This document shows, in pieces, positions 18,630-63,400 of a DNA stretch of 64,000 bases. This DNA is from Dactylorhiza incarnata (Eukaryota > Streptophyta > Magnoliopsida > Asparagales > Orchidaceae). A model generated the notes under the pieces. That model saw only the letters and a list, made by a program, of their open reading frames with translations. It did no database searches and was not told the DNA's origin. The stretch's first letter is position 1; every line of letters starts with the position of its first letter. The position numbers and the translations under genes were made by a program. The stretch covers positions 806,001 through 870,000 of the forward strand of contig JAWHQI010000202.1 in NCBI GenBank assembly GCA_033032865.1. Direction: 5' to 3'.

Positions 18630-19062
18630 ATAATATAACAATAGGTCCGGTCGGGACCTCACGTCATATTGAACACACAAGCTAGACGTTAAAAGATGAT
18701 AAACATAAATGAGAGACTACACAGAGTAAAGTAAATATGTTGGTGGAAGCTTTGATTATAATGCAGACATGAATGCCCACATCACTAAGACATGATATAC
18801 AATAAATTTTTAAACATCAACTCACAGGCCGGCAAAAATAATATATATAATATACACACAGACTATCTCTCTCTTCAAACAACATAACAATAGGTCCGGC
18901 CGGGTCTCCACTGCATATTGAACACACAAACTAGCATTAAAAGATGATAAACAAAAATGAGAGACTACATATAGTAAAGTAAATACGCTAGCGAAAGCTT
19001 TGGTTATAACACAAACATGAATGTCCACATCACTAGGAAATGATATACAATAAAGTTCCTGC
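18630..19062. repeat. Tandem duplication, 249-bp offset
   Basis: The segment around ACAATAGGTCCGG at 18638 recurs at 18887 with about 15% divergence over more than 170 bp, including AGATGATAAAC and GAGAGACTAC. Confidence 0.8.
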
Positions 19063-30507: not shown

Positions 30508-30696
30508 TGAAAGTGCACAGTTAACCTCACTAGAATTCTCTAGAGGGGGGTGAATAGAGATTTAAAATATTTTGTGCAATTATATATATTTATATGTGGT
30601 GATCACAGATTAAGGCTTCCCACACACCAACAAGAATTAAACAAGTAAAGAAAATAAATGAAAGAAAAGAAATCACAGCACAACACAAAGAAATAT

Positions 30697-30726
30697 AGTG
30701 GTTCCCCAAACTTTGGGTAGTCCACT
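30697..30726 (-). promoter_or_regulatory. Conserved leader stem (element B, 3' LTR copy)
   Basis: Outer stem AGTGG/CCACT with inner CCCAAA-C-TTTGGG. The 5' LTR copy is at 39788-39817. Element C has the same outer stem and CCC/GGG but a different apical helix. Confidence 0.6.
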
Positions 30727-30764
30727 CTTCTACCCCCTTGGTAGGAAATTCACTATCTTGCACT

Positions 30765-30855
30765 GAGTCTTTTGATAAGGAGACTCTTAGAACCACCCTG
30801 AGTCTTTTGACAAGGAGACTCTTAGAACCAACTGAGTCTTTTGAAAAGGAGACTC
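30765..30855 (-). repeat. Three tandem hairpins in element B R/U5
   Basis: Units at 30765-30786, 30800-30821 and 30834-30855 each pair GAGTCT with AGACTC over a 10-nt loop and are separated by TTAGAACCA. The loop differs by one base between units (GATAAGG, GACAAGG, GAAAAGG). The 5' LTR copy is 9091 bp to the right. Confidence 0.85.
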
Positions 30856-31512
30856 TTAGAACCAGTACAACTGAATTTTTTGAAGAGAGGTTCTACAAAC
30901 TCTTTTACAATATGTGAAAATAAAGGTAAAGAAGAAAGAGAGATCATATAAAGACAAGAAGGAATCTTCTTCCTAGCAAGAAGATTGGAAGCACAAGAAG
31001 TAGTGAATGAAATCTCTCTTCTATAGTGAGAAGGAGATTGTAGCCCTTTTCTCTCTTTTGTGAGAGCTATCAGAGTTTGCAGCAATATGGCTTCAGAGTG
31101 AGAAGGAGAAGGAAGCTTGTTCTTTACTGCAGCACTATTTCTCAATTTTCTCTTTTCACTTGGGAGCTCTTCCTCTTTTTCAAATGTAAAATGGTGGATC
31201 ACTTCTTGTTGCTTTCTGCCGACCATCTTGTTATTTATAGCTATGTTCATTAAAATAACACTATAGGAGAGTAATCAATTAGCAGACAGAGTATTAGAAA
31301 GAAGGAGAAATTTCCATAACAATTATATCCATAGAAGGAAAGTATTCATTCTGATTTCAAATAGTGTCCATAATGGATTTAATCAAATTAGCCAAGAAAT
31401 CATTAGAGGAAAAGAATAATTCAGAACGGCTATAAAGAATAATTTGATTTCATATAAATCAGATCTATGGAAGAAGGAAAGAGATCTGGCGATTTTTGAA
31501 TTAATCATAGAA

Positions 31513-31750
31513 ATCGACGTGCATCGATTACTATTAAACGTAGGCGTCGAATTCGTCCTGGCAGAACGTCGAGAGGAGAATAAGGAAGGTGCGTCGACTA
31601 GGGTGCGTCGACTTCTCAAGATACGTCGACTAGAAGTCAGAGCTACGTCGACATAGGATACGTCGAATTCTGCTTGGAGCTACTTCGACTCATTCTGATA
31701 GAAACGTCGACTTTATTTCGACGTTGCGTCGAATACTATTCGACGCATAT
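31513..31750. promoter_or_regulatory. GCGTCGA palindrome cluster in U3 (3' LTR)
   Basis: About 14 GTCGA/TCGAC half-sites in 240 bp. The clearest full site is GCGTCGA-ATACTAT-TCGACGC near 31730. The 5' LTR copy at 40604-40841 retains more intact CpGs (for example CGTCGATT versus CATCGATT here), as expected if CpG deamination erodes them. Confidence 0.75.
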
Positions 31751-31828
31751 TTACGTACCTTGATTTTCCTTTCTTGGAATTCATATTCAGCTTATTTTCA
31801 CGGGTTAAGAGAAATCATTTTCCCAACA

Positions 31829-39591: not shown

Positions 39592-40919
39592 TGAAAGTGC
39601 ACAGTTAACCTCACTAGAATTCTCTAGAGGGGCGGGGAGGGTGAATAGAGATTTAAAATATTTTGTGCAATTATATATATTTATATGTGGTGATCATAGA
39701 TTAAGGCTTCCCACACACCAACAAGAATTAAACAAGTAAAGAAAATAAATGCAAGAAAAGAAATCACAACACAACACAAAGAAATATAGTGGTTCCCCAA
39801 ACTTTGGGTAGTCCACTCTTCTACCCCCTTGGTAGGAAATTCACTATCTTGCACTGAGTCTTTTGATAAGGAGACTCTTAGAACCACCCTGAGTCTTTTG
39901 ACAAGGAGACTCTTAGAACCAACTGAGTCTTTTGAAAAGGAGACTCTTAGAACCAGTACAACTGAATTTTTTGAAGAGAGATTCTAAAAACTCTTTTACA
40001 ATATGTGAAAATAAAGGTAAAGAAGAAAGAGAGATAATATAAAGACAAGAAAGAATCTTCTTCCTAGCAAGAAGATTGGAAGCACAAGAAGTAGTGAATG
40101 AAATCTCTCTTCTATAGTGAGAAGGAGATTGTAGCCCTTTTCTCTCTTTTGTGAGAGCAATCAGAGTTTGCAGCAGTATGGCTTCAGAGTGAGAAGGGGA
40201 AGGAAGCTTGTTCTTTGCTGCAGCACTATTTCTCAATTTTCTCTTTTCACTTGGGAGCTCTTCCTCTTTTTCAAATGTAAAATGGTGGATCACTTCTTGT
40301 TGCTTTCTGCCGACCACCTTGTTATTTATAGCTCTGTTCATTAAAATAACACTATAGGAGAGTAATCAATTAGCAGGCAGAGTATTAGAAAGAAGGAGAA
40401 ATTTTCATAACAATTATATTCATAGAAGGAAAGTATTCATTCTGATTTCAAATAGTGTCCATAATGGATTTAATCAAATTAGCCAAGAAATCATTAGAGG
40501 AAAAGAATAATTCAGAACGGCTATAAAGAATAATTTGATTCCATATAAATCAGATCTATGAAAGAAGGAAAGAGATCTGACGATTTTTGAATTAATCATA
40601 GAAATCGACGTGCGTCGATTACTATTCGACGTAGGCGTCGAATTCGTCCTGGCAGAACGTCGAGAGGAGAATAAGGAAGGTGCGTCGACTAGGGTGCGTC
40701 GACTTCTCAAGATACGTCGACTAGAAGTTAGAGCTACGTCGACATAGGATACGTCGAATTCTGCTTGGAGCTACTTCGACTCATTCTGATAGAAACGTCG
40801 ACTTTATTTCGATGTTGCGTCGAATACTATTCGACGCATATTTACTTACCTTGATTTTCCTTTCTTGGAATTCATATTCAGCTTATTTTCAGGGGTTAAG
40901 AGAAATCATTTTCCCAACA
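39592..40919 (-). mobile_element. Element B 5' LTR
   Basis: Same structure as the 3' LTR with a 7-bp insertion (CGGGGAG) near 39633. TATA box at about 40322-40331, U3 palindrome cluster 40604-40841, leader stem 39788-39817 and the three hairpins at about 39856-39946. Confidence 0.95.
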
Positions 40920-41340: not shown

Positions 41341-41819
41341 TAAGCATCAGGTAGAATCCCAGTCGTCGGATCCTTGATCAGGCCAATCAACAACCCAAAA
41401 TCGGGTTTAAAATAGTTACGTCGCGGAACACACGGTCGTGCATTTCATGAGTACGGTTGTGCATGAGTTTATTCTGGAAAGACTGGATTTCAACTGATCT
41501 GACTCTGCTCGTGCTTTCTGATCATGCGCTGAGATGCATGATCGTGCGTTTGCCCAGAAATCCTTTGAAAAGCCACATAAATAGTCCCCAAAGTGCACGG
41601 GACATCCTTAGGCTCTACTGATCTCAACCCATTTCTCAAGATGTTTTTGGGGTGTTATAATAGTATTCTCATCACTCATCTTCTCTCGTTTGCAGCATGC
41701 AGAGGTGATGTACCCCTAACCATGCACGGTGTCGTCTCGCTCGAAAAAAGACAAATCATGTTATGCAATATAATGGTAATTTTGATGTCTTTTCTCAAGT
41801 GAGATGACATCGACCGAGG

Positions 41820-41870
<51 letters not shown>

Positions 41871-41890
41871 CGCACTCTGCATAGCAACAC
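41341..41890. other. Unclassified stretch ending in a 46-base G run
   Basis: No gene recognised. G run 41822-41867. The last five bases before element C, AACAC, are its predicted target-site copy. Confidence 0.5.
41822..41867. repeat. Poly-G tract, 46 bases
   Basis: The longest of eight G/C homopolymers in the window. Confidence 0.9.
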
Positions 41891-42028
41891 TGAAAGATTA
41901 TATAGGTATATGATCTAATTCACCTAGAGGGGGGTGAATAGGTATTTTGATTTTTACTTGTTTTATTTAGATAGTTAAAACTATTCTATGCAAGAAATCA
42001 AGCAAACCCAGAAAACACACGTGTTTAT

Positions 42029-42067
42029 AGTGGTTCCCCAAGACAGTGTGTCTATGGGTAGTCCACT
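42029..42067 (-). promoter_or_regulatory. Conserved leader stem (element C)
   Basis: Outer stem AGTGG/CCACT, inner CCC/GGG, apical helix GACA-GTG-TGTC. A second hairpin CTAACA-GTG-TGTTAG follows at about 42086-42100. The 5' LTR copy is at 50272-50310. Confidence 0.6.
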
Positions 42068-42121
42068 TTCCCCCTTCACCCTTCTAACAGTGTGTTAGAC
42101 AGGGTCAACTCCTCCAATCTC

Positions 42122-42475
42122 AGCTCCAAGAGCTTACAACACAGATACCTCAGGATCTCTCAGGTTTTCCCAACCCTACCTCAGGCACAGCATCCCTACC
42201 TCAGATCAGTCACTGATCCTACAACTCAGACCATAGCAGGTCCTACAATCTCAGGCTAACAAGCCCTACCTCAGAGAAATCTACCTCCTACAACTCAGAC
42301 CACAGCAGGTCCTACCTCAGAGGAATCCTCCTCCTACAGCTCATGCAATAATGCCTTACAACTCAGGCTAAACAGCCCTACCTCAGATCTTCACAGATCC
42401 TACCTCAAGCTGTCCTCACAGCTCTACAACTCAGGCAGTGAAGCCCTACAAACTCAGAACCCAAAGGTTCCTACA
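42122..42475 (-). repeat. Variable-stem hairpin array in element C leader
   Basis: About 15 units of 20-27 bp with linkers CTACCTCA or CTACAACTCA, each holding a different short inverted repeat. Examples: AGCTC-CAA-GAGCT (42122), GATCAGT-C-ACTGATC (42204), GACC-6-GGTC (42229), GGCT-AACA-AGCC (42254), GAGG-AAT-CCTC, AGCTGT-CCTC-ACAGCT (42408) and GAACC-CAAA-GGTTC (42457). The 5' LTR copy is 50367-50715. Confidence 0.85.
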
Positions 42476-42890
42476 ATAAAAGATTTGTTGAAGCTTACTA
42501 CAGCAAACAGCAGAAGAAGTCCCCTGTAGTTCCTGCACACCTGGTGCTTCCTTGTAGCTGGAGATGTTGATGGCAGCTACTAACTGATCTTCCTCTTCAG
42601 ATGAAGGATGGAATATCACCTTGCTCCTGGTAGACGAGCTTTCTTTTTCTCTCTTCTTCTTCTTGCTTGTTCAGTGAGCAGCAGGAGAAAGACGAGAGCT
42701 CTAGCCGTCAATGGAATAGTAATCACTTTTAGCACTCGAGCAGTACTTTTCCAAAGTGCCCTAACTTCTTCTTTTATACATCCCCGACCTTCAACGGCTC
42801 CCAACCGTCTTTCTGAGTAGTATGGGAGAGACTGGTGGACCCCATCCTGACTTTCTGCAGCTTGCGCCACAGGCAGAACTCGCACTCTAT

Positions 42891-43341
42891 GTTCGACGAA
42901 CACTCCAAGCTCTGTGTTTGATGAACTCACCGTACTCTGCGCTCGACGAACTCGTCATGCTCTGCGTTCGACGAACTCGTCATGCTCTGCGTTCGACGAA
43001 CTCGATTCTCCGTTCGACGAACACGCCAAGTCTCAGCGCTTGCTTCTGTTCTGTCTCTGTGTTCGACGAACTGTGTTCTGCGTTCGACGAACATGCCAAA
43101 TCTCAGTTGTTTGCTTATGTTGTCTCTGTGTTCGATGAACTGTGTTCTGCGTTCGACGAACACGCCAAATTTCTTCTATCTGCAAGCTGCTTCTTTCCCG
43201 TCTCAGCGGATCCGCTGAGACAGTGAGCTCGTCTCAGCGGATTCTTCTATCTTCAGCTCCTTCCCCGTCTCAGCGGATCCGCTGAGACAGTGAGCTCGTC
43301 TCAGCGGATTTGATCCTTCGTCTCAGCGGTTCTGCTGAGAC
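42891..43341. promoter_or_regulatory. GTTCGACGAAC and GTCTCAGCGG palindrome clusters in U3
   Basis: Ten GTTCGACGAAC-type 11-mers (seven exact) lie between 42891 and 43161, partly as a 25-bp tandem. Then two perfect 22-bp palindromes (GTCTCAGCGGA plus its complement) occur at 43200-43221 and 43267-43288. An imperfect one is at 43320-43341 and single half-sites are at 43231 and 43298. Confidence 0.8.
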
Positions 43342-43522
43342 AATTCTTCATCTCTCAGGAGTTGATTTCTCCTGAACTAAGGGCATGATTGGCCCTTTCT
43401 CTTGAGTTACCTAAGCATGTATATCTTACACAAATATGGCTTTATCAAATACAACTTTGTACTTAGCATTGTGAGTGATGCCTCTTCAAATCAAAGAAAT
43501 ATTGAGGGCAATATTCCCAACA

Positions 43523-43534
43523 ATTTCCCCCTAT
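43523..43534 (-). promoter_or_regulatory. Polypurine tract of element C
   Basis: Minus strand ATAGGGGGAAAT directly before TGTTGGG. Confidence 0.9.
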
Positions 43535-44355
43535 TTGAAGAAGGCAGAATATTCTCAATGCTAAGGTACATACTCAAGTAAAAACATATCATGAAAATGA
43601 TCTATGTAGCATTCATGATAACATTGCTTAAGATAACATTGTTTACGCCTGCTTTGATACCTCATGACAGATTTTGTTAAGCTTTGACTAGCTCATAGGT
43701 TATCTCCCCTTATCTAACTCAGATTATGTGGCATATTCATAATAACTAACTCTGATAAATTTTATCAGAGGGCTAACTCTGATTTGGTCATAGCATTGGC
43801 CATCTCCGCCTTTCTGATTTCTTCAACTATTTTCCTTTTAGGAATTGGGAGGCAGCATTTACCAACTCCCCCTCAACCTGAGCAGGGACTTGCTCCCCCT
43901 CAATGTAAGTATTATTAGCTATATTAGCTGTTCTTGTTCATTTTGAACAACCCTTGCTAGCTCCCCCTCACTTGGAGCATTAGTATTGACCTTTTGATTG
44001 TAAGTGTAAATGAAATTAAATCCAATGCCTGAGTTCGTCGAACTCAGAGTTGAGTCCGTCGAACACAAGCTCGACGTTCGTCGAACCCAGGTAAGAGTTC
44101 GTCGAACCCAGAATTTTCCCAGCTGTTTGAGCATGAAGCTCAGCTGATCCAGATTTTTCTGATCCAGCTGATCATACTACATTATGCTGTTCTAAATTTA
44201 ACATTTTAGGGAGATTATCTACCCTATCATGTGGACTATGCCTACTGTAAAGTTGATCAATTCAGATTTCAGTTTATCATAACAGTACATATTGTAAGAA
44301 TTGTACAAATGAGAACATAAGCATTTTAATAGTGGATATTGATTCATAAATGAAC
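43535..44355. other. Non-coding interval between pol and 3' LTR of C
   Basis: No env-like ORF remains. Four GTTCGTCGAAC-type sites (the same 11-mer on the other strand) cluster at 44034-44112, repeating the U3 motif. Confidence 0.65.
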
Positions 44356-47300
44356 TCATTCTAAATTCAACATACCTAATTCAATTTTGAAAGAATTGAA
44401 CTTGGCCTCATCCAGTGGCTTGGTGAAGATATCAGCTACTTGATTATCAGTGGGGACATATTCAAGTTTGATATCTTCACACTCTACATGCTCTCTAATA
44501 AAATGGTACCTTATTCTATGTGATTGGTCCTGCTATGGGAGACAGGATTTTTGGCAATAGAAATACCATTGGATGAGTCACACAGCATGGGAGATTGTAT
44601 AATAATCCTCCAATTGATGTTGGATCCACAGAAGTTGAACACAACAACTACCTGCAGCAATGTACTCTGACTCAGCTGTGGATATGACCACGCTGGATTG
44701 CTTTTTGCTGCTCTAAGAGATCAGCCTTCTCCCTAGGAATTGACAAGTGCCACTTGTGCTTTTCCTGTCTTCTTTGCATCCTGCAAAATCTGCATCTGAA
44801 TAGCCTATTAGTTCAAAGTCATTGTTCCTAGGGTACCAAAGGCCAAGATTTAGGCTGCTCTTGAGGTATCTCAAAATCCTCTTGACAGAGGTGTAGTGAG
44901 ATTTCTTAGGACAAGCCTGATACCTAGCACAAACACATGTAGAATACATAATGTCTGGTCTACTAGCAGTCAAGTACAACAGGGATCCAATGATACACAT
45001 GTACATGGATTCATCAAAGGCCTTCTCCTTTTCATCATTGTCTAATGATACATTAGATCCCATGGGTGTTCTCATGGTGGAGGCTAATTCCATCCCAAAT
45101 TTCTTGATGAGCTCCTTGGTGTACCTAGTTTGGGAAATGAAAATTCCCTCATCAGACTGTTTCACTTGGAGCCCAAGGAAATATTTAAGTTCACTCATAC
45201 TGCTCATCTCAAACTCCCCCTGCATTAGATTGGCAAATCTCTTGCAGAGGTTGTCATCAGTAGACCCAAATATTATGTCATCAACATAGATTTGGACTAA
45301 GAGACACTTGCCCCTTGTTCCCTAAGAAACAATGTGTTATCTATCTTTCCCCTCAAGAACTTGTTCTTGATAAGAAAGCTAGTCAATGTCTCATACCAAG
45401 CCTTGGGGGTTTGCTTAAGACCATACAAAGATTTCCTAAGTAGATAAACATGAGATGAGAGAGTGGGATGGACAAAACCTGATGGTTGCTCTACATAAAC
45501 TTCCTCTTTCAGATTCCCATTCAGGAATGCTGATTTGACATCCATCTGGTATACCTTGAAGCCTTTGTGGGTTGCATATGCAAGTAATAGCCTTATGGCC
45601 TCCAACCTTGCAACTGGGGCAAAGGTTTGGTCAAAGTCTATTCCTTCCTCTTGCCTATACCCCTTTGCAACCAACCTTGCCTTGTTCTTGATGATTGTCC
45701 CATTCTCATCCATCTTGTTTCTGAAGATCCATTTGGTGCCAATTATGTTGTGTCCATGTGGTCTTGGCACCAACTTCCATACTTTGCATCTCTTAAATTG
45801 CAACAGTTCTTCCTGCATAGCCTGAATCCAGAATGGATCCAAGTTGACCTCTTCAAATTTATTAGGCTCTACCTGTGACAGGAAACTGAGGAATAAGGCC
45901 TCATTGTGAGCCCTGCTCCTAGTTGTCACACCTTGCTGAACATTCCCAATAATCTGCTCCATGGGATGATCTCTTAGATGAATTGTAGCTGCAGTCAGTC
46001 TATTCTCTGGGTCTGCTTGCTGTGCTGTTTCAGCTGGTTCATCAGTGTCTTCATTAATATTGACTGCTTCCTCTTCAGGGATGGCAGCATCAGAATGAGC
46101 TTTGTTGTTGCTTGGTGTGTCTTATATAGACATCCTTTCCAACTCATGTTCATTTCCTGTCAAGACAGAAGATCTAGACCAGCCATTATATATTAGGCTG
46201 GTTTCATCAAATACTACATGCATAGACTCCTCTACAACATTAGTTTTCTTGTTGTATACTCTATAAGCTCTACTATGAGAGCTATAGCCAACAAGAACAC
46301 ATACATTGCATTTCTCTGCAAACTTTGTTAATTGAGATTTTCCATTGTTCAAAATGTAGCATTTTGAACCAAAGATTCTAAAAATGAAATTGGTGGTTGT
46401 TTGCCTTTCAGAATCTCATAGGGAGTTATTCCATGAACCTTATTGATGGAAGCTCTATTGAGAACATGACAAGCAGTATTGACTGCCTCAGCCCAGAAGT
46501 ATTCTGGGAGTGAGGAGTCACTAAGCAGTGTTCTCCCAGCTTCTATCAAGGTCCTATTCCTCCTCTCAGCCAGACCATTTTGTTGTGGAGTCCTTGGGGA
46601 GGAGAACTCTTGGGTAATACCATATTCTTGGCAAAACCTTGTCATAACATCAGATTGAAATTATGTGTCATGGTCAGTTCTAGTTCTGACCACATCACAT
46701 TGCAAGTCATTCTGAATTGCTTTGACAAGAGTTATAAAAATATTTAGAGTATCAGACTTCTTCTTTAGGAAGAAAACCCATGTATATTTTGAGTGATCAT
46801 CAACAACCACCAAAGTATACAACTTCCCACCTAAGCTGAATTGGCAAGGGACCAAACAAGTCCATATGCAAGAGATAGAGACATCTTTTAGTGTCTTTGG
46901 TGCCAATACTTTTAAAGGTGGTCATTGTTTGCTTACCCATTTGGCAAGCATGATAGGGACCATCTTTAATACATTTTAAATTAGGACTATTCCTGACAAG
47001 CTTTTTAGAGAAAAGTCTATACATTATCTTGTAGTTAATATGAGCAAGTCTCTTGTGCCATTGTACACAGAGAGACTCATTCTCATTAGCTACAAGACAA
47101 ACAGATGTAAGAGAATTACTGCAAATAAAATCTAAGCAATAAACATTCCCACTCCTAGTGCCTGAGAGAATAGTCTCTAAGTCCTTAGACTTTTTAATCA
47201 AGCACTTGTCATTGTGGAATTCAATGACATAGCCTAGGTCACACAGTTGACTTATGCTCACAAGGTTGTGTTGCAACCCTTCAACATAAGCTACCCTTGT

Positions 47301-47495
47301 GATGGAAACTATGCCATTGGATATCATACCATATCCCTTGGTGATTCCTTTTTCAGATCCCCCAAATATAACTTTGGGTCCATTCTTCACATGCTTGTAG
47401 TCCTGTAGAAGACTCCTTGTTCCTGTCATGTGCCTTGAGCACCCACTTTCCAAGTACCAAATTTGTTTTAGGTTGGTACTTGAACTAACCTGCAA
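44356..47495 (-). pseudogene. Copia pol of element C, frameshifted
   Basis: Protease WYLESGCSRHMTG (Glu in place of the catalytic Asp), zinc motif WHKRLAHINY...HACQMGKQ, integrase pieces HMDLFGP, RTDHDT and PQQNGLAERRNRTLIE. RT shows [20 protein letters not shown], with YVDDIIFGST present only in another frame. RNase H shows [20 protein letters not shown] and [11 protein letters not shown], ending LGMLNLE at 44356. At least six shifts or stops (near 46810, 46660, 46350, 46125, 45297, 44715) break it. It is clearly related to element B pol. Confidence 0.93.
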
Positions 47496-47513
47496 GAAGA
47501 AGTTTAGTTATCC

Positions 47514-50071
47514 TTAGGAGCCCAAAAAACCTTTGGGTCCTAGGTGCATGTTAGTCTGATGAGAGAATCTCACCCTAACTACACTCCTAGCAGGAAGGCT
47601 CTTCTTTGCATTAGGTACATTGGGATTGTACCAACAATCTATGGCAAAGTGTCCCACTTTACCACAACACCAACATTCATGAATATTGTATCTCCTTTTT
47701 TGAACATTTCTTGAGGGGAGTGCAGCACTGTGCACATGTTCAGGTGGAGAGACAGCTGCATTCTTCCTGTTTCTCTCAGCAATGATTTGATTGAAAGTCA
47801 ATCTAAGTGCTGTCTTGATGCTCTTTGTCCTGATGTCATCAACCTGCTTTGGCTTGGCAGCCATACAAGATCTGATGGCATCTGTCACTGAGCAACAAGC
47901 CATGTCAACAGATTTGACATCAGTTATTTTCTTTGCTGAACTAGATTTAGAAGTGCTTGCACCCTGATTCTTGAATGAGGGGGCTGATGTACCAAATACA
48001 AAAGGTCCAGGTTGGACCATTTGAATTTCCTCATGGGAAGCCTTCATGGCACTCAATCCCATCTCCTTTCTTCCACTATGGGAAGGAGTATTTTCCTTCC
48101 TATAGAAACTCTCATTCTTCCAGTGACCATAAATGCTTTCATGGTCATACCTGTTGGAAGGAAGTAACACCTTTTGAAAGGTGGGTTGAGGCTTAGCCTT
48201 CCCCTTTCTCTTCTCTCCACTCCCTTCTCCTACTTCCATTTTATTGAATCCTAGTCCTCTCCTTTTGGTTTGAGAGGAGAAGGTGTCAATAATAGGGAGA
48301 ACGGATTTGGGCTTGGAGAATTGAGCCACCAGGTTCTTCTCTTTCACATGCTTCCCCTCAAGGTCCTTGATGACCTTGTTCTTCAGGGAAATAATGCTTA
48401 ATTGCATAAATATTAACCCCTTTAAGTGGCTTATCTGTCTACTCATCTGAGCCACCAGGGTGGTAGGTTCAGTGTAGTCAGTTTTAGTCACTTTAAGGGA
48501 GGCAATTTCCTGGGCTTGCCTCTTGGCAAGCTTCTTGCTCTTCTTCAGAGCTTCCAAAAGAACACCATACTTGTCAATCAATTGATTGACATCTTCCTCA
48601 GCTTCTGAACCACTTCCACCAATTGATGAAGGTGCTTCAGATTCTGGACCAGTCTCATAATCAGAAGAGGATATGGAATGAATTAATACCTGCTCATGTT
48701 CAGAATTGTTGTGGCTGTCCTCATCTTCAGTTAGAGCCATTAGCCCATGGTCATCTTGAATGACTTCATCCTCCTCTACATCACTGTCTGAATGTGATAG
48801 AGGGGCCCTGATTCCTGTCCTGATAACTGGATAGCCCTCTCCCTCCTGAGCAGCAACTAACCCTATGTAGGCTTCCTCTTCTTCATCTGAATCTGAAGAT
48901 GAAGATGAAGATTCACTCTAGCTCTTTCCTTTTTGGCTAGAAAGGATTTTTCTTCCTTCCTCTCCTTCTGGTGATGGGTCTTCTTGTCATCTCTTTCTTT
49001 TCTCTTGACTGGACAGTCCGCAATGACATGTCCAGGCTTACTGCAGCAATATCAAGTGATGTTATTTGAAACATGTTTACTAGATTTAGAATCGTACCTG
49101 TCCCCTTTGGGGTGCTGCCTTTCAGATCTATGGTGATCCTTCCTGGGATGAGAGGAGGAGGAAGGTTTGTTCTTCCAATGTTTCCTCCTTATCATCTTCT
49201 TGAATTGCCTAGTGAAGGCAGCAAACTCCTCATCAGAAGAGGAGCAGTCTGAAGTGCAGCTCTCAGACTTCTCAGATTCAGCTGTCCTTCTTGGAGGTGA
49301 CTGTAATCTGCCCTTTCTCTTCTTTGAGCTATCAGCTTTGAGAGCTACAGTTCTCTCCTTTGTGTGAGCCCTGGAAGAAGTATCCTCCTCCTTTCTTGCA
49401 GTCAGCTGCATCTCATATGAGAGCAGTTTCCCAAATAGTGTGTGGGTAGGGGTTTCTCCCAGCTTTGCCACCTCCCTGATGACACAAATTTTTGTGTCCC
49501 AATCCCTAGTTAGAGATCTAAGGAACTTATCATTCATCTCATAGTTGGTGAACACTCTCTCATAGGTTCTTAGTTCATTCACTATCCTAAAGAACCTCTC
49601 ATAGCACATGAAAATGCTCTCTTGGCTCATCTGCCTAAAGGCTTCATACTCTTGGTTTAAGAGTGACTTTCTATCATCTCTCACTTATGCAGTCCCTTCC
49701 ATATAAACTACTAATGTGTCCCACATTTCCTTGGCAGTAATGCAGTGTACTAAGTTTTGAAATGTGGAGTCATCAATAGCATTTACTATGATGTTCTGGG
49801 CTCTCTTGTCCATAGTGAACAGAGTGAGTTCATTTGTGGTTAAGTCATTAAATGCCTTTTCCACCCTTCTGGTTGGATCTATTATGGAGGCAGTTTTGAA
49901 AGTGAAGGGACCTTCCTTGACAGTAACATAGATCCTAGGGTCAGATGCTTCCATGAACAATCTAACCCTCTGCTTCCATATGCCAAAGTTGTCTTTGTTG
50001 CATATGGGCAGTTTCATGGAGCCCATCTCCTTCTTCATTCCACTAGAGACCATCTGATACAGAATATTCAA
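47514..50071 (-). pseudogene. Unusually long copia gag of element C
   Basis: Starts at about MGSMKLPICNKDNFGIWKQR (within 50071-49685), continues after a stop as LLNQEYEAFRQMSQESIFMC and IVNELRTYERV, then the first knuckle YCCSKPGHVIADC (after an in-frame TGA near 49055). An acidic serine-rich stretch leads to the 408-codon frame 48740-47514 (coiled-coil-like, VLLEALKKSKKLAKRQAQEI). That frame ends with a second knuckle CWCCGKVGHFAIDC. In total it spans about 850 codons with three or more lesions. Confidence 0.85.
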
Positions 50072-50123
50072 TACCTATTTAGGATCTGGTCAGACTGTTA
50101 AGTCTTTCTTGACCAACCTAGCT

Positions 50124-50133
50124 ATGATACCAC
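50124..50133 (-). promoter_or_regulatory. Primer binding site of element C
   Basis: Minus strand TGGTATCATAGC, two bases from the LTR end. Confidence 0.85.
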
Positions 50134-50135
50134 TT

Positions 50136-51061
50136 GAAAGATTATATAGGTATATGATCTAATTCACTTAGAGGGGGGTGAATATGTCTTTTGATTTTTA
50201 CTTATTTTATTTAGATAGTTAAAACTATTCTATGCAAGAAATCAAGCACACCAGAAAACACACGTGTTTATAGTGGTTCCCCAAGACAGTGTGTCTATGG
50301 GTAGTCCACTTTCCCCCTTCACCCTTCTAACAGTGTGTTAGACAGGGTCAACTCCTCCAATCTCAGCTCCAAGAGCTTACAACACAGATCCCTCAGGATC
50401 TCTCAGGTTTTCCCAACCCTACCTCAGGCACAGCAGCCCTACCTCAGATCAGTCACTGATCCTACAACTCATACCACAGCAGGTCCTATAATCTCAGGCT
50501 AACAATCCCTACCTCAGAGAAATCCACCTCCTACAACTCAGACCACAGCAGGTCCTACCTCAGAGGAATCCTCCTCCTACAGCTCAGGCAATAATGCCTT
50601 ACAACTCAGGCTAAACAGCCCTACCTCAGTTCTTCACAGATCCTACCTCAAGTTGTCCTCACAGTTCTACAAACTCAGGCAGTGAAGCCCTACAAACTCA
50701 AAATCCAAAGGTTCCTACAATAAAAGATTTGTTGAAGCTTACTACATCAGACAGCATAAGAAGTCTCATGTAGTTCTTGCACACCTGGTGCTTCCTTGTA
50801 GCTGGAGATGTTGATGGCAGCTACTAACTGATCTTCCTCTTCAAATGAAGGATGGAAGATCACCTTGATCCTGGTAGAGGAGCTTTCTTTTTCTCTCTTC
50901 TTCTTCTTGCTTGTTCAGTGAGCAGCAGGAGAAAGACGAGAGCTCTAGCCGTCAATGGAATAGTAATCTCTTTTAGCACTCGAGCAGTACTTTTCCAAAG
51001 TGCCCTAACTTCTTCTTTTATACATCCCCGACCTTCAACGGCTCTCAGCCGTTCTTCTGAG
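50136..51061 (-). mobile_element. Element C 5' LTR, truncated part
   Basis: Homologous to 41891-42817, with the leader stem and the hairpin array (50367-50715) and the TATA box at about 51015-51024. U3 is missing because D inserted just upstream of TATA (minus sense). Confidence 0.92.
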
Positions 51062-52322
51062 TGTAAGATCACTCTCCCGCACCTAGAGAGCTTCCGGATC
51101 TTATGCCCAGAACCGCCGCCTTACGGTGACACTAACACCCGAGTTAGCTGCCTCCGCAAGACGCCGATCCTACCCGCAGAACGATCAACAGGCCAACAAG
51201 AGGTAAGAAGGAAAAATAAACAAAACCAAGTCCACAATCACATATTTATACAACAAAATATAAAAAGTCCATCAATGAGTACAACAAGTAAAGGAGAGAA
51301 AGGGCTTAAGCCCGGCACATATCCAAGCAAAGTACAAAAACTCTCTCACTCTACATCTATGCGGAAGCTAAACAAACTCTCAACTCTCGAACACTTGTCT
51401 TGTAGTAGAAGTAATGCGCGACATAAGCTCCTCAGGTCCTGTCTCCTCTTCTATCTGGGGCTCCATCACCTCGGGTACCTACGGTCACAACCGACCATTA
51501 GTCATAAAGACTAAGCTGATTTTGTCCCCGCCTCCCCCCGCGACTCCTAGGCACCGTGCAGGAGGACGAAGCGGAGGAAAAACAAGGGGTAATAGAAACA
51601 AGGCAGGTGACAAATGTCTAGACTAGTAGGGTATATATATACTAAGCAAGAAGAGGTAACAATTCTATACAAACCAGAGTAAGTATGACAGCAAATAGCA
51701 ATAGACAATGCAATATAAAGAAGCAGGTACAAGAAATAAGTGCAGCTACGAAAGTAACCTTAACTTATATGCACACATAAAAGCACATAATTTAAGGGAT
51801 CTGGCAAGAAGTAAACTCATTGTATAAAAGAGCTCATACGGATTTATACAATGAGGTCTCTGTTTGTGCAGGAATGTTATGCTATGATGTGCAATGCAAT
51901 GATGCAATGTTTGTATTATTATTTCATACACATGCAACTCACCCATACGACTCTGTACGTACAGACCTTTAGTTCCCACTTTTCGGAGGTAGCTAACCTC
52001 TCGGGCACCTCCCATCGTGGTCAAACGGTGGCAGAGGAGCGGGCGTCTCCTCACCTAGGTGGGTAAGTCGCACTACCAGACCTAGTCCCTAACGTACGTT
52101 GTGATACCGGTACCCGGTACTCACGAGCTTCGGCGTACTAAACTGAATTGGTCAGGCATGGTTTAGGGAATCCGTCCCGTCGGACGCACAGAAGACAACC
52201 TGGCCCCCATAAAACCACTAGCACTGCCGAGTCAACGAACTGCTGTCGGTGTGACGACTAAGACAGAACCGAAGACCCACCACATCTTATACACAAGCAA
52301 CATGTATTAGCCATTTACTACC

Positions 52323-53001
52323 GAGCCTCCAGCTCGCAATTCTGCATCAACATTTATAAAGTAGAGCCTACCGCTCGCCAGACTATACCGCTCGCCAGAC
52401 TATACCAGTCTTATATTTAAACTACGAGCCTATCGCTCGCTAGACTACACTAGTCTTATATTTAAACTACGAGCCTACCACTCGCTAGACTACACTAGTC
52501 TTATATTTAAACTACGAGCCTACCGCTCGCTAGACTACACTAGTCTTATATTTAAACTACGAGCCTACCGCTCGCTAGACTACACTAGTCTTATATTTAA
52601 ACTACGAGCCTACCGCTCGCAGGACTATCCCAGTCCTACCTTATAACCCGAGCCTATCGCTCGCAGGATTATCCCAGTCCTTCCTCATAACCCGAGCCTA
52701 TCGCTCGCAGGACTATCCCAGTCCTTCCTTATAACCCGAGCCTACCGCTCGCAGGACTATCCCAGTCCTTCCTTATAACCCGAGCCTACCGCTCGCAGGA
52801 CTATCTCAGTCCTTCCTTATAACCCGAGCCTATCGCTCGCAGGACTATCCCAATCCTTCCTTATAACCCGAGCCTACCGCTCGCAGGACTATCCCAGTCC
52901 TTCCTTATAACCCGAGCCTACCGCTCGCAGGACTATCCCAGTCCTTCCTTATAACCCGAGCCTACCGCTCGCAGGACTATCCCAGTCCTTCCTTATAAAA
53001 T
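52323..53001. repeat. 44/45-bp paired-hairpin array (D 3' LTR)
   Basis: Four 45-bp units (52426, 52471, 52516, 52561), then nine 44-bp units (52606 to 53001), after two or three degenerate units. Each unit has CGAGC-CTACC-GCTCG followed by AGACT-ACACT-AGTCT (45-bp type) or GGACT-ATCCC-AGTCC (44-bp type). Confidence 0.95.
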
Positions 53002-60482: not shown

Positions 60483-63400
60483 TGTAAGATCCCTCCCCCG
60501 CACCTGGAGAGCTTCCGGATCTTATGCCCAGAACCGCCGCCTTACGGTGACACTAACACCCGAGTTAGCTGCCTCCGCAAGACGCCGATCCTGCCGGCAG
60601 AACGATCAACAGGCCAACAAGAGGTAAGAAGGAAAAATAAAACAAAACCAAGTCCACAATCATACATTTATACAACAAAATATAAAAAGTCCATCAATGA
60701 GTACAACAAGTAAAGGAGAGGAAGGGCTTAAGCCCGGTACATATCCAAATAAAGTAAAAAAACTCTCTCACTCTACATCTATGCGGAAGCTAAACAAACT
60801 CTCAACTCTCGAACACTTGTCTTGTAGTAGAAGTAATGCGTGACATAAGCTCCTCAGGTCCTGTCTCCTCTTCTAGCTGGGGCTCCATCACCTCGGGTAC
60901 CTACGGTCACAACCGACCGTTAGTCATAAAGACTAAGCCAATTTTGTCCCCGCCTCCCCCCGCGACTCCTAGGCACCATGTGGGAGGACGAAGCGGAGGA
61001 AAAACAAGGGGTAATAGAAACAAGGCAGGTGACAAATGTCTAGACTAGTAGGGTATATATATACTAAGCAAGTAGAGGTAACAATTCTACACTAACCAGA
61101 GTAAGTATTACAGCAAATAGCAAAAGACAATGCAATATAAAGAAGCAGGTACAAGAAATAAGAGCAGCTGCGAAAGTAACCTTAACTTATATGCACACAC
61201 AAAAGCACATAAGTTAAGGGATCTGGCAAGAAGTAAACTCATCGTATAAAAGAGCCCATACAGATTGATACGATGAGGTCTCTGTTTGTGCGGGAATGTT
61301 ATGCTATGATGTGCAATGCAATGATGCAATGTTTGTATTATTATTTCATACACATGCAACTCACCCACACGACTCTGTATGTACAGACCTTTAGTTCCCA
61401 CTTTTCAGAGGTAGCTAACCTCTCGGGCACCTCCCGTCGTGGTCAAACGGTGGCAGAGGAGCGGGCGTCTCCTCACCTAGGTGGGTAAGTCACACTACCA
61501 GACCTAGGCCCTAATGTACGCTGTGATACCGGTACCCGGTACTCACGAGCTCCTGCGTAATAAACTGAATTGGCCAGGCAGGGTTTAGGGAATCCGTCCC
61601 GTCGGACGCACAGAAGACAACCTGGCCCCCATAAAGCCACTAGCACTGCCAAGTCAACGAACTGCTGTCGGTGTGACGACTAAGACAGAACCGAAGACCC
61701 ACCACATCTTATACACAAGCAACATGTATTAGCCATTTACTACCGAGCCTCCAGCTCGCAATTCTGCATCAACATTTATAAAGTAGAGTCTACCGCTCGC
61801 CAGACTATACCAGTCTTATATTTAAACTACGAGTCTACCGCTCGCTAGACTACACTAGTCTTATATTTAAACTACGAGCCTACCGCTCGCTAGACTACAC
61901 TAGTCTTATATTTAAACTACGAGCCTACCGCTCGCTAAACTACACTAGTCTTATATTTAAACTACGAGCCTACCGCTCGCTAGACTACACTAGTCTTATA
62001 TTTAAACTGCGAGCCTACCACTCGCAGGATATCCCAGTCCTACCTTATAAACCGAGCCTATCGCTCGCAGGATTATCCCAGTCCTTCCTCATAACCCGAG
62101 CCTATCGCTCGCAGGACTATCCCAGTCCTTCCTTATAACCCGAGCCTACCGCTCGCAGGACTATCCTAGTCCTTCCTTATAACCCGAGCCTACCGCTCGC
62201 AGGACTATTTCAGTCCTTCCTTATAACCCGAGCCTATCGCTCTCAGGACTATCCCAATCCTTCCTTTTAACCCGAGCCTACCGCTCGCAGGACTATCCCA
62301 GTCCTTCCTTATAACCCGAGCCTACCGCTCGCAGGACTATCCCAGTCCTTCCTTATAACCCGAGCCTATCACTCGCAGGACTATCTCAGTCCTTCCTTAG
62401 AAAATGTTCCGGTTTGGGATGGAAGTTAACTTGACATGTTCTCCTACTTAACTAGTCTTGTCTATAATTTAGTTGATCTTAGAAGCTTTAGGGTTAGCCT
62501 TGGACTTCCGGAGGGTTACCCGGTGAGGGGCTCGCAGCGGTACTGGAAAGTGTGGCGGGCTGACACCCCCGAACTTCCTCTTCCCAAGGCACTTAATCTT
62601 GTTGGTATCTACCCCTTTTTACTTGATCCCCATTATCCTCTCCAATTCCATTAAATCTATAAGATTAGTTAAACTTGGCTCTTAGGAGTGGGGGAGTTCT
62701 TTTGAACTCCAACACCACCAATTGTGACCGGGTGCTGACTCTCCTGTCGTCACATTCTAAGCTCGAGTTCCCTTCTTCACCGAGGAACTGCACACATTCA
62801 ATTAGCATTCTCAACCTTACTTGGACCCACACTCCAATTCTTCGTCATCCTTAATCCAGGGTTTGCCTTAGATATTTCTCGACTTCTCCCTTGAGTATTT
62901 ACCTTAAGATGGCTCACTCGGCTAAGGGTAGTTTTACTTCCATATAATCATTTAACACTGATGAGTTGTCTGTGGGGCCCTTGATGAGGTCTAACCTCCT
63001 TTTTATATCATTATAAATTCCTGCACTTATAGCTTTGTTAAACGCACCCCAACCCTTATTTCACATGATACCTGGGCACCCCTTCGGCCGGAAACCACCA
63101 CCACCTCCATCGCGGATGTGGGGGTTATGGATTCCCGGCGACACCGCCGCTAGAGGCGGCCCGTACGGCAAGTTTGAGCTTGGCCTAAAACACCATTATA
63201 TTCCGAAATTTTCCATTTTCTCACCATGGATCGGGCTCATTTGAGCCTGATGTCTCTCCTAATGGATCTAGGATGCTAGCACAAGGGGAGAGGAGGAGAA
63301 ACCGGACCTTAATGGAGCTTGACGGCGGCGGCGGCGGTGGTTGGCCATGAATCTTCTCCTCTCCGGCGAGCTTGCTCAAAACTTCAATCCTCCACCGTTT

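Follow-up and report, generated by a model that had tools for sequence, protein, structure and literature searches.

To our knowledge, little has been worked out about the way in which plant LTR retrotransposons tag their RNA for packaging. The packaging signals of single-stranded RNA viruses share a short recognition motif and have stems of differing sequence; the motif is carried by hairpin loops at sites scattered through the genome. Here we describe an array that resembles such dispersed signals (e.g., PMC3593212, PMC5431903) in having many hairpins. In contrast to them, it is a tandem array whose units share their motif in the joints, not in the loops. The array lies in a window of 64,000 nucleotides from Dactylorhiza incarnata (assembly GCA_033032865.1, contig JAWHQI010000202.1, positions 806,001 to 870,000).

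The array is also similar to the repeated motif (RM) of Sireviruses, tandem palindromes in the LTR with a family-specific sequence (Bousios et al. 2010, PMC2829016). According to the portion of that paper available, which calls the Sirevirus LTR extremely diverse, the RM is found in only 13/21 Sirevirus elements, its copies are >85% identical in 10/13 elements, and a CGG-CCG core is present in 12/13 (Table 3 of PMC2829016). RM copies within an element are alike and precede the TATA box, in U3, whereas the array lies downstream of it, with stems that differ and a constant joint. PMC2829016 has 0 occurrences of "hairpin" and "stem-loop"; the stem loop that it describes, in the part available, is an inverted repeat at the polypurine tract (PPT). 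We considered the array as an RM and rejected this. It sits downstream, not upstream, of the TATA box, and it has 10 distinct left arms (stem positions 2-5) among 15 units, where near-identical copies would be expected in one element.

Other known systems are similar in part. The hairpin palindromes of maize Sireviruses, which attract small RNAs (Bousios et al. 2016, via PMC10760457), are likewise RNA structure predicted from palindromic motifs clustered in an LTR. They are palindromes of a cis-region, with CACCGGACNNNGTCCGGTG as the commonest consensus, and the available part of PMC10760457 tells of no constant joints with changing stems. Long retroviral R regions have a conserved stem-loop structure in the R part of the LTR, as in the array (PMC3601003). 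However, that structure is told for retroviruses; for Sire LTRs the available part of the same source gives TATATA, CAACAAA and a PPT stem loop, and no tandem array. The Ty1 5' leader (TIPIRT domain, PMC5454406) is also a structured 5' end of a Ty1/copia RNA, and its structure is needed for translation, packaging and priming. Copia-type leaders can therefore be structured and matter for packaging. The Ty1 structure is a pseudoknot with two kissing hairpins, and PMC5454406, as far as it was available, has no tandem array. Our literature search, with most subscription papers outside its coverage, found no constant-joint, changing-stem array described for LTR retroelements.

Element C and its hairpin array

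We found that the array belongs to a broken Ty1/copia Sirevirus, element C, which is on the minus strand and is read right to left (Table 1). The strand is assigned because the ORFs, the primer-binding site (PBS), the PPT and the TATA box are all placed there. Pfam profiles identified copia-type gag and reverse transcriptase. One of the five gag-pol pieces searched (47517-48740) was without a Pfam match; its translation contains a CCHC zinc-knuckle-like stretch, seen by eye. Self-comparison of the window gave the LTR copies as direct repeats (41888-42822 and 50131-51065) that are 96% identical. Another LTR, from ~51062 rightwards, abuts the 5' LTR of element C and cuts it short. A run of 46 G (41822-41867) lies to the left of the 3' LTR, 24 bases from the LTR end; G or C runs of at least 25 also occur elsewhere in the window.

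By its sequence, element C carries most of the Sirevirus marks given in the available part of PMC2829016. Sireviruses have several AGGGGGAG PPTs before the 3' LTR, the terminal one followed by AT/TG (PMC2829016). Element C has three exact AGGGGGAG copies (beginning at 43968, 43900 and 43873, with one more within pol at 45221) and a terminal AGGGGGAA-AT-TG. The terminal PPT differs from AGGGGGAG at its last base, a change known in two elements, in all their copies (PMC2829016). Around the terminal PPT, candidate matching arms of an inverted repeat, AGCATTG...CTTCAAAT and its inverse, can be spotted by eye. The CGG-CCG palindrome is present as GTCTCAGCGGATCCGCTGAGAC at 43200-43221 and 43267-43288, followed by the TATA sequence TATAAAAG, which starts at 42778 in the 3' LTR and at 51022 in the 5' LTR (minus strand). 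These U3 palindromes are of the known Sirevirus repeated-motif kind and are distinct from the hairpin array. The published junction of 5' LTR and PBS is CA-ATTGG (or AGTGG)-TATCAGAGC, and a polyC integrase signal is also described (PMC2829016). We found CA-AGTGG-TATCATAGC at 50136-50121, with one departure, and TTCACCCCCCT at 50182 and 41938.

Table 1. Features of element C (positions in the window).
Feature	Position	Strand	Details
Hairpin array, 3' LTR	42122..42475	-	15 units, cores 13-18 nt
Hairpin array, 5' LTR	50365..50719	-	96% identical to 3' copy
gag-pol pieces, broken	44716..49684	-	Pfam profile matches; five pieces searched separately
Retrotran_gag_2	49055-49684	-	E 3.1e-07
gag_pre-integrs + Pol_BBD	46803-47495	-	gag_pre-integrs 8.2e-14
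RVT_2, two pieces	45300-45962 and 44716-45225	-	9.5e-53 and 5.8e-08
3' LTR (LTR3)	41891..43522	-	TG...CA, ~1.63 kb; begins after PPT AGGGGGAA + AT
5' LTR (LTR5)	50135..51062	-	5' part missing
TATA box TATAAAA, 3' LTR	42772..42778	-	motif only
Primer-binding site TGGTATCATAGC, initiator-Met tRNA type	50121..50132	-	resemblance to PBS in the available part of PMC2829016
Terminal polypurine tract AGGGGGAA	43525..43532	-	sequence
U3 palindromes GTTCGACGAAC; GTCTCAGCGGATCCGCTGAGAC with CGG-CCG core	42891..43341	-	upstream of TATA box
U5 hairpin box AGTGGACTACCC...GGGGAACCACTATA, 3' LTR	42026..42067	-	conserved, directly downstream of array
U5 hairpin box, 5' LTR copy	50269..50310	-	sequence
Hairpin between array and U5 box, plus-strand letters ACCCTTCTAACAGTGTGTTAGACAGGGT	42078..42105	-	sequence

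The original prediction had placed about 15 tandem units, with linkers and unit-specific stems, between the TATA box and the primer site. The units are in the sequence, and on the minus strand the array does lie there, with its start 303 nt past the TATA box and ahead of the primer site; the strand that had been read (plus) was wrong. Since the host element is on the minus strand, the array would appear in its RNA as the reverse complement of the plus-strand letters. Of the two copies, the one in the 5' LTR would end up in the putative leader on transcription. A parser that uses the linker anchors alone (GTA...GAG, minus strand) finds 15 units in LTR3, and a strict parser, which skips cores with an inner GTA, finds 14. 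In the RNA sense each of the 15 LTR3 units consists of a GAG-Nn-GUA joint, where n is here mostly 0-3, and a hairpin with 3-7 pairs; GGAACCUUUGGGUUCU, GGAUCUGUGAAGAUCU and GAGCUGUGAGGACAGCUU are examples of LTR3 cores. The outermost pair in LTR3 is G.U in 13/15 units and A-U in 2/15, the second is G-C in 13/15, and the inner pairs are varied. The claim of a different stem in every unit does not hold generally: the 15 units have 10 distinct left arms, and element B and its kin have two or three near-identical units. Among C-family joints (n=261), GAGGUA was found 111 times, GAGUUGUA 66, GAGUUUGUA 26, GAGCUGUA 26 and GAGAUUGUA 20, along with nine rarer ones. There were ~11.8 anchored cores per C array of ~430 nt, compared with 1.0 per kb in the remaining window.

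We rejected a coding reading of the array, as the joints introduce stop codons (TGAG, GTAG). No listed ORF of at least 150 amino acids overlaps either array, and a search of 41800-51200 with 4227 Rfam covariance models gave no match at E up to 1. A hairpin at 42143-42158, before the last unit, has a UGAG loop, i.e., the joint motif inside a loop, and its stem varies. It is also present at L098, L101, L120, L121, L123 and L124, with stems AGATCC/GGATCT or AAGTTC/GAACTT; in LTR3 itself the stem is mismatched. Just upstream of the array (42484-42490, minus strand) is CAACAAA, which resembles the Sire polyadenylation site motif as given in the available part of PMC3601003. If used as a poly(A) site, it would put the array in U5 only.

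Pairing of stem arms within and between arrays

We found that the two arms of a stem match each other far better than they match the arms of other units. In the arm-swap test, stem arms were swapped between units and pairing at stem positions 2-5 was recounted. In LTR3, 56/60 of these positions were paired, compared with 37.8 ± 2.85 after swapping, and none of 20,000 swaps was as good. LTR5 had 52/60 paired (35.6 ± 2.8 swapped; 0/20,000 as good). Only 184/472 positions were paired in chance GTA...GAG stretches elsewhere in the window. In five hold-out C-type arrays, 40/44, 43/44, 54/56, 47/48 and 42/44 positions were paired, and 0, 1, 0, 0 and 0 of 5,000 swaps reached the natural pairing. The one hold-out E-type array had 19/20 paired, with 77/5,000 swaps as good. 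The two remaining hold-outs, from families L114 and L118, had no significant pairing with the strict parser (2/3 and 4/11 positions, in 1 and 3 units). Longer stems are visible in both on looser inspection.

Folding energy gave a weaker signal. For 42029-42475, folding had been proposed as a test of the structure, and on the plus strand this region does fold better than its shuffles (z -3.1, 1/100 as good). That strand is not the RNA sense, in which z was only -2.3 for the LTR3 array (5/500 shuffles as good) and -1.9 for LTR5 (18/500). The antisense strand of the array gave z -3.5 (0/500). Whole-region folding energy modestly beats shuffles, antisense more so, and is too weak as a witness alone. 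The signal is probably weak because the sense strand is G/U-rich and folds many ways.

Related arrays are abundant in the genome (3.27 Gb in 3184 contigs). A search with the array gave 3,417 first-look candidates; the 40 that were scored were 94-100% identical. A U5 box pattern matched exactly at 18,699 places and its reversed control at 0. A C-type box matched at 2,001 places, and a short-tip box at 1,712, nearly all of which also match the first U5 box pattern. Outside this genome, the U5 box had 0 matches in viral_contigs and 0 in genome_contigs, neither of which is a plant-genome collection. The box pattern used for excising C-family arrays matched 27/40 fetched loci (10/20 + 17/20), 4/8 array-search loci and L036. 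Loci without a match were left out of the C-family analyses; L039, L047, L049 and L052 were used for the LTR-pair comparison. Removal of duplicates left 32 C-type sequences, or 30 arrays without the two LTRs of the window, and these are 60-97% identical to LTR3. L099, in which other DNA replaces most of the array, is included in the 191-unit and stem-change counts. It was left out of the joint, AUG and intact-pair counts and of the two-difference, like-stem, cluster-representative, G.U and joint-conservation analyses.

We found that pairing is maintained among these copies while the paired letters change. The 30 C-type arrays contain 355 cores, 191 of them distinct. Watson-Crick pairs were present in 177/191 distinct units at position 3 (82.5 ± 6.0 swapped), in 152/191 at position 4 (68.5 ± 5.8) and in 132/186 at position 5 (55.6 ± 5.9). 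All four pair types occur at position 4 (C-G 81, T-A 42, G-C 20, A-T 9). At the outer stem positions G.U or G-C is nearly invariant, and these pairs are little informative; 155/191 units close with G.U. In 30 E-type arrays with 100 distinct cores, position 4 was paired in 89/100 (39.4 ± 3.9 swapped), and position 3 is nearly fixed (89 vs 79.6 ± 1.5).

These arm-swap statistics ignore kinship among copies. Relatedness was lessened by clustering the cores and keeping a single representative of each cluster, with representatives >3 edits from one another. The 37 C representatives had 124/145 positions paired, compared with 88.3 ± 4.1 after swapping and 105 in the best of 5,000 swaps; with one arm slid by 1, only 80/145 and 63/145 were paired. 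E representatives had 84/99 paired (55.1 ± 4.1 swapped; 0/5,000 as good). Where two cores had exactly two differing arm positions, these were complementary in 9 cases vs 9.3 expected in the C family, and in 5 vs 2.4 in the E families. This comparison is uninformative, probably because such neighbors mostly carry private changes. As a gauge of whether like stems are avoided within an array, mean differences were compared with a random draw and were 2.133 vs 2.041 ± 0.043 for C and 1.687 vs 1.646 ± 0.106 for E; the draw mixes homologous units of related copies, which leaves these figures without weight.

Covariation over family copies, which the original prediction had put forward, withstood the test in its arm-swap form, in 30 copies, 37 representatives and 5/5 C-type hold-outs. 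The prediction had also held ordinary tandem-repeat decay to be inadequate, and we agree. Decay of an ordinary tandem repeat with a consensus unit that is palindromic by chance would account for the similar units that recur within and between arrays and for the nearly constant outer pairs. However, swapped arms pair far less, which refutes the decay reading at the inner stem positions, and units private to one array are less paired than shared ones. We regard such an origin as scarcely credible.

Rows of hairpins are also found in other families. In a box-search survey, the first 30 loci represent 29 distinct places (L019 repeats L018) from two contigs. By eye, all 29 have tandem hairpin-like repeats just upstream of the U5 box. 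Most are of type B, with two or three near-identical units; one is C, four are E and three are F. Type F has GGTGC-TAGG-GCACC and GGTGT-GTGG-ACACC between TGATCAAAA linkers. Related families have the C-type joints with different stems. The hairpin row seems to be common to the families, with stem diversity as a trait of the C and E types. The tip of the U5 box varies between families (AAAGTTT, AGATTTATT, ACATC, AAGATC, ATAGACACACTGTCTT), whereas the search pattern itself sets the base, AGTGG/CCACT.

Two further elements in the window have repeats of this sort. Element B, a minus-strand copia element with LTR repeats at 30508-31828 and 39592-40919 (97.5% identical), has three near-identical hairpin units of 34-35 nt in the corresponding part of its leader, at 30762-30864 and 39852-39955. 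The LTR of another element (minus strand, 52386-52998 and 61779-62399) has a 44-45 nt tandem repeat, each unit of which contains two palindromes. At matching positions AGGACT...AGTCCT stands in one block and AGACTA...TAGTCT in the other, seemingly a further compensated stem switch.

Strand bias and the fate of changed stems

We found that most mispairs tolerated in stems are of the kind able to pair in sense RNA. At positions 3-7 of 227 distinct C cores (hold-outs included), there were 65 G.U and 9 A.C mispairs. The G.U share was 0.878, compared with 0.603 ± 0.015 after swapping and 0.662 in the best of 2,000 swaps. At position 4, 15 distinct units had T.G and 3 had C.A; at position 5 the counts were 19 and 1. 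Since G.U in the sense strand is A.C in the antisense strand, this indicates that the constraint acts on the sense RNA.

The two LTRs of a retrotransposon belong to one element, and differences between them therefore arose after insertion. We compared five LTR pairs, of ~10 suggested by spacing; they were paired into elements from spacing and orientation. The five pairs had 37 stem-pair differences, of which 36 affected one side and 1 both sides. Both copies stayed paired in 21 of these, one copy was broken in 16, and two-sided restored pairs numbered 0/37. Among 14 close copies, two-sided Watson-Crick replacements were found in 3/65 changed stem cells. Among 16 distant copies they were found in 86/311, a rough count, and 144/311 were unpaired; the alignment behind both numbers crosses shuffled units. 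The first four pairs were intact in 24/24 C cores that occur in at least three arrays and in 97/143 that occur in one. E cores were similar (shared, 17/18; single-array, 46/67). As judged from these copies, the pattern is one of selection in active elements plus decay in dead ones.

The original prediction had left two explanations of the stems, selection on structure or template switching. We favor selection on RNA pairing, which appears very probable, because of the G.U excess in the sense strand and the contrast between LTR-pair and deep differences. Template switching (quasipalindrome correction) would make and repair stems with little or no selection. It is a described mechanism that can create stems and multibase compensations (PMC8794818, as far as available), and some stems do differ by several pairs at once, e.g., AGATCC/GGATCT and AAGTTC/GAACTT, both with a TGAG loop. 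However, it predicts no strand bias of mispairs, in contrast to the 65 G.U and 9 A.C observed, and the variation from C-G to T-A is accompanied by T.G, not C.A. Template switching should also act in dead copies, where no LTR-pair difference was restored on two sides and 16 were broken on one. As the main cause it is improbable; as a source of mutations it may contribute, though it is not needed.

The same mispairs bear on palindromes that act in DNA, as protein-binding sites or cruciforms like the Sirevirus U3 repeated motifs. Palindromic LTR motifs with proposed regulatory roles are known in Sireviruses (PMC2829016, available part), and element C has U3 ones. A role in DNA is nevertheless very unlikely for the array. 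It is downstream of the TATA box, stems that differ from unit to unit offer no common DNA site, most of the tolerated mispairs can pair in sense RNA, and the usual closing G.U is a mismatch in DNA.

Conserved joints and possible roles of the array

We found that joints are conserved more than stems. In 15 distant copies compared with LTR3, anchor letters were identical in 686/759 cells, stem letters in 1247/1671 and loop letters in 449/805. Variants shared among 14 close copies were found in 0 of 66 anchor, 9 of 140 stem and 12 of 73 loop columns. The comparison is independent of the parser in the non-reference copies. The E families share the C-type joint, with GAGTTGTA in 54/129; here GAG and GTA are set by the parser and only the middle is free.

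The arrays contain few AUG triplets. From dinucleotide-based expectations, C arrays had 35 vs 146.1 expected and E arrays 6 vs 43.0. The control AGT was also low in C arrays (182 vs 304.7) and not in E arrays (268 vs 232.3). The R-U5 of LTR3 (855 nt) had 3 AUG vs 14.2 expected and that of LTR5 had 4 vs 15.9, with none common to the two.

On balance, we lean toward reading the array as a structured element in the 5' leader of Ty1/copia retrotransposons of the Sirevirus genus. If transcribed from the TATA box, it would lie in the RNA leader, and the element RNA would have 10-15 short hairpins in a row, with selection on base pairs in the stems and on sequence in the GAG-Nn-GUA joints. The hairpins might serve as exchangeable spacers that hold many single-stranded copies of the motif open. 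Their sequences would drift along paths that preserve pairing, and the joints would be the part that is recognized. As the reader of the joints we would guess, first of all, the Gag of the element itself, acting through its CCHC zinc knuckle; such reading could lead to recognition, dimerization or packaging of genomic RNA. Gag nucleocapsid binding and packaging would be well served by many exposed copies of a motif close to the 5' end. We put forward this putative role in packaging or recognition as a possibility that falls somewhat short of even chances.

The main rival to Gag binding and packaging is translation that is friendly to scanning. A weakly structured, AUG-poor leader would let ribosomes scan or shunt to gag, with short hairpins melted in turn and joints kept for a host RNA-binding factor or for avoidance of pairing. 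The low AUG content of C and E arrays and of R-U5, and stems of only 3-7 pairs, are in line with this. However, avoidance of AUG is expected in any capped leader and marks place more than function. Control of translation also leaves the conservation of joint letters, in distant copies and across families, unexplained, and we consider it unlikely, if clearly less so than the other rivals.

A more specific form of the recognition reading is more tentative still. It would make the array a modular recognition device, with at least 10 single-stranded GAG-Nn-GUA copies and hairpins free in sequence provided they pair, present in thousands of Sirevirus copies here and probably old in the genus. If many sites or varied stems were required, families with only two or three near-identical hairpins would be out of line.

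A leader with few shared stem letters, yet with strong covariation and a kept joint motif, is a defined RNA to probe. The joint is a motif to mutate, and the 2,001 places with a C-type box are a natural set of variants. The arrays are also an unusual record of compensatory evolution, in which paralogous stems lie in one molecule and LTR pairs and private changes provide a near-neutral control.
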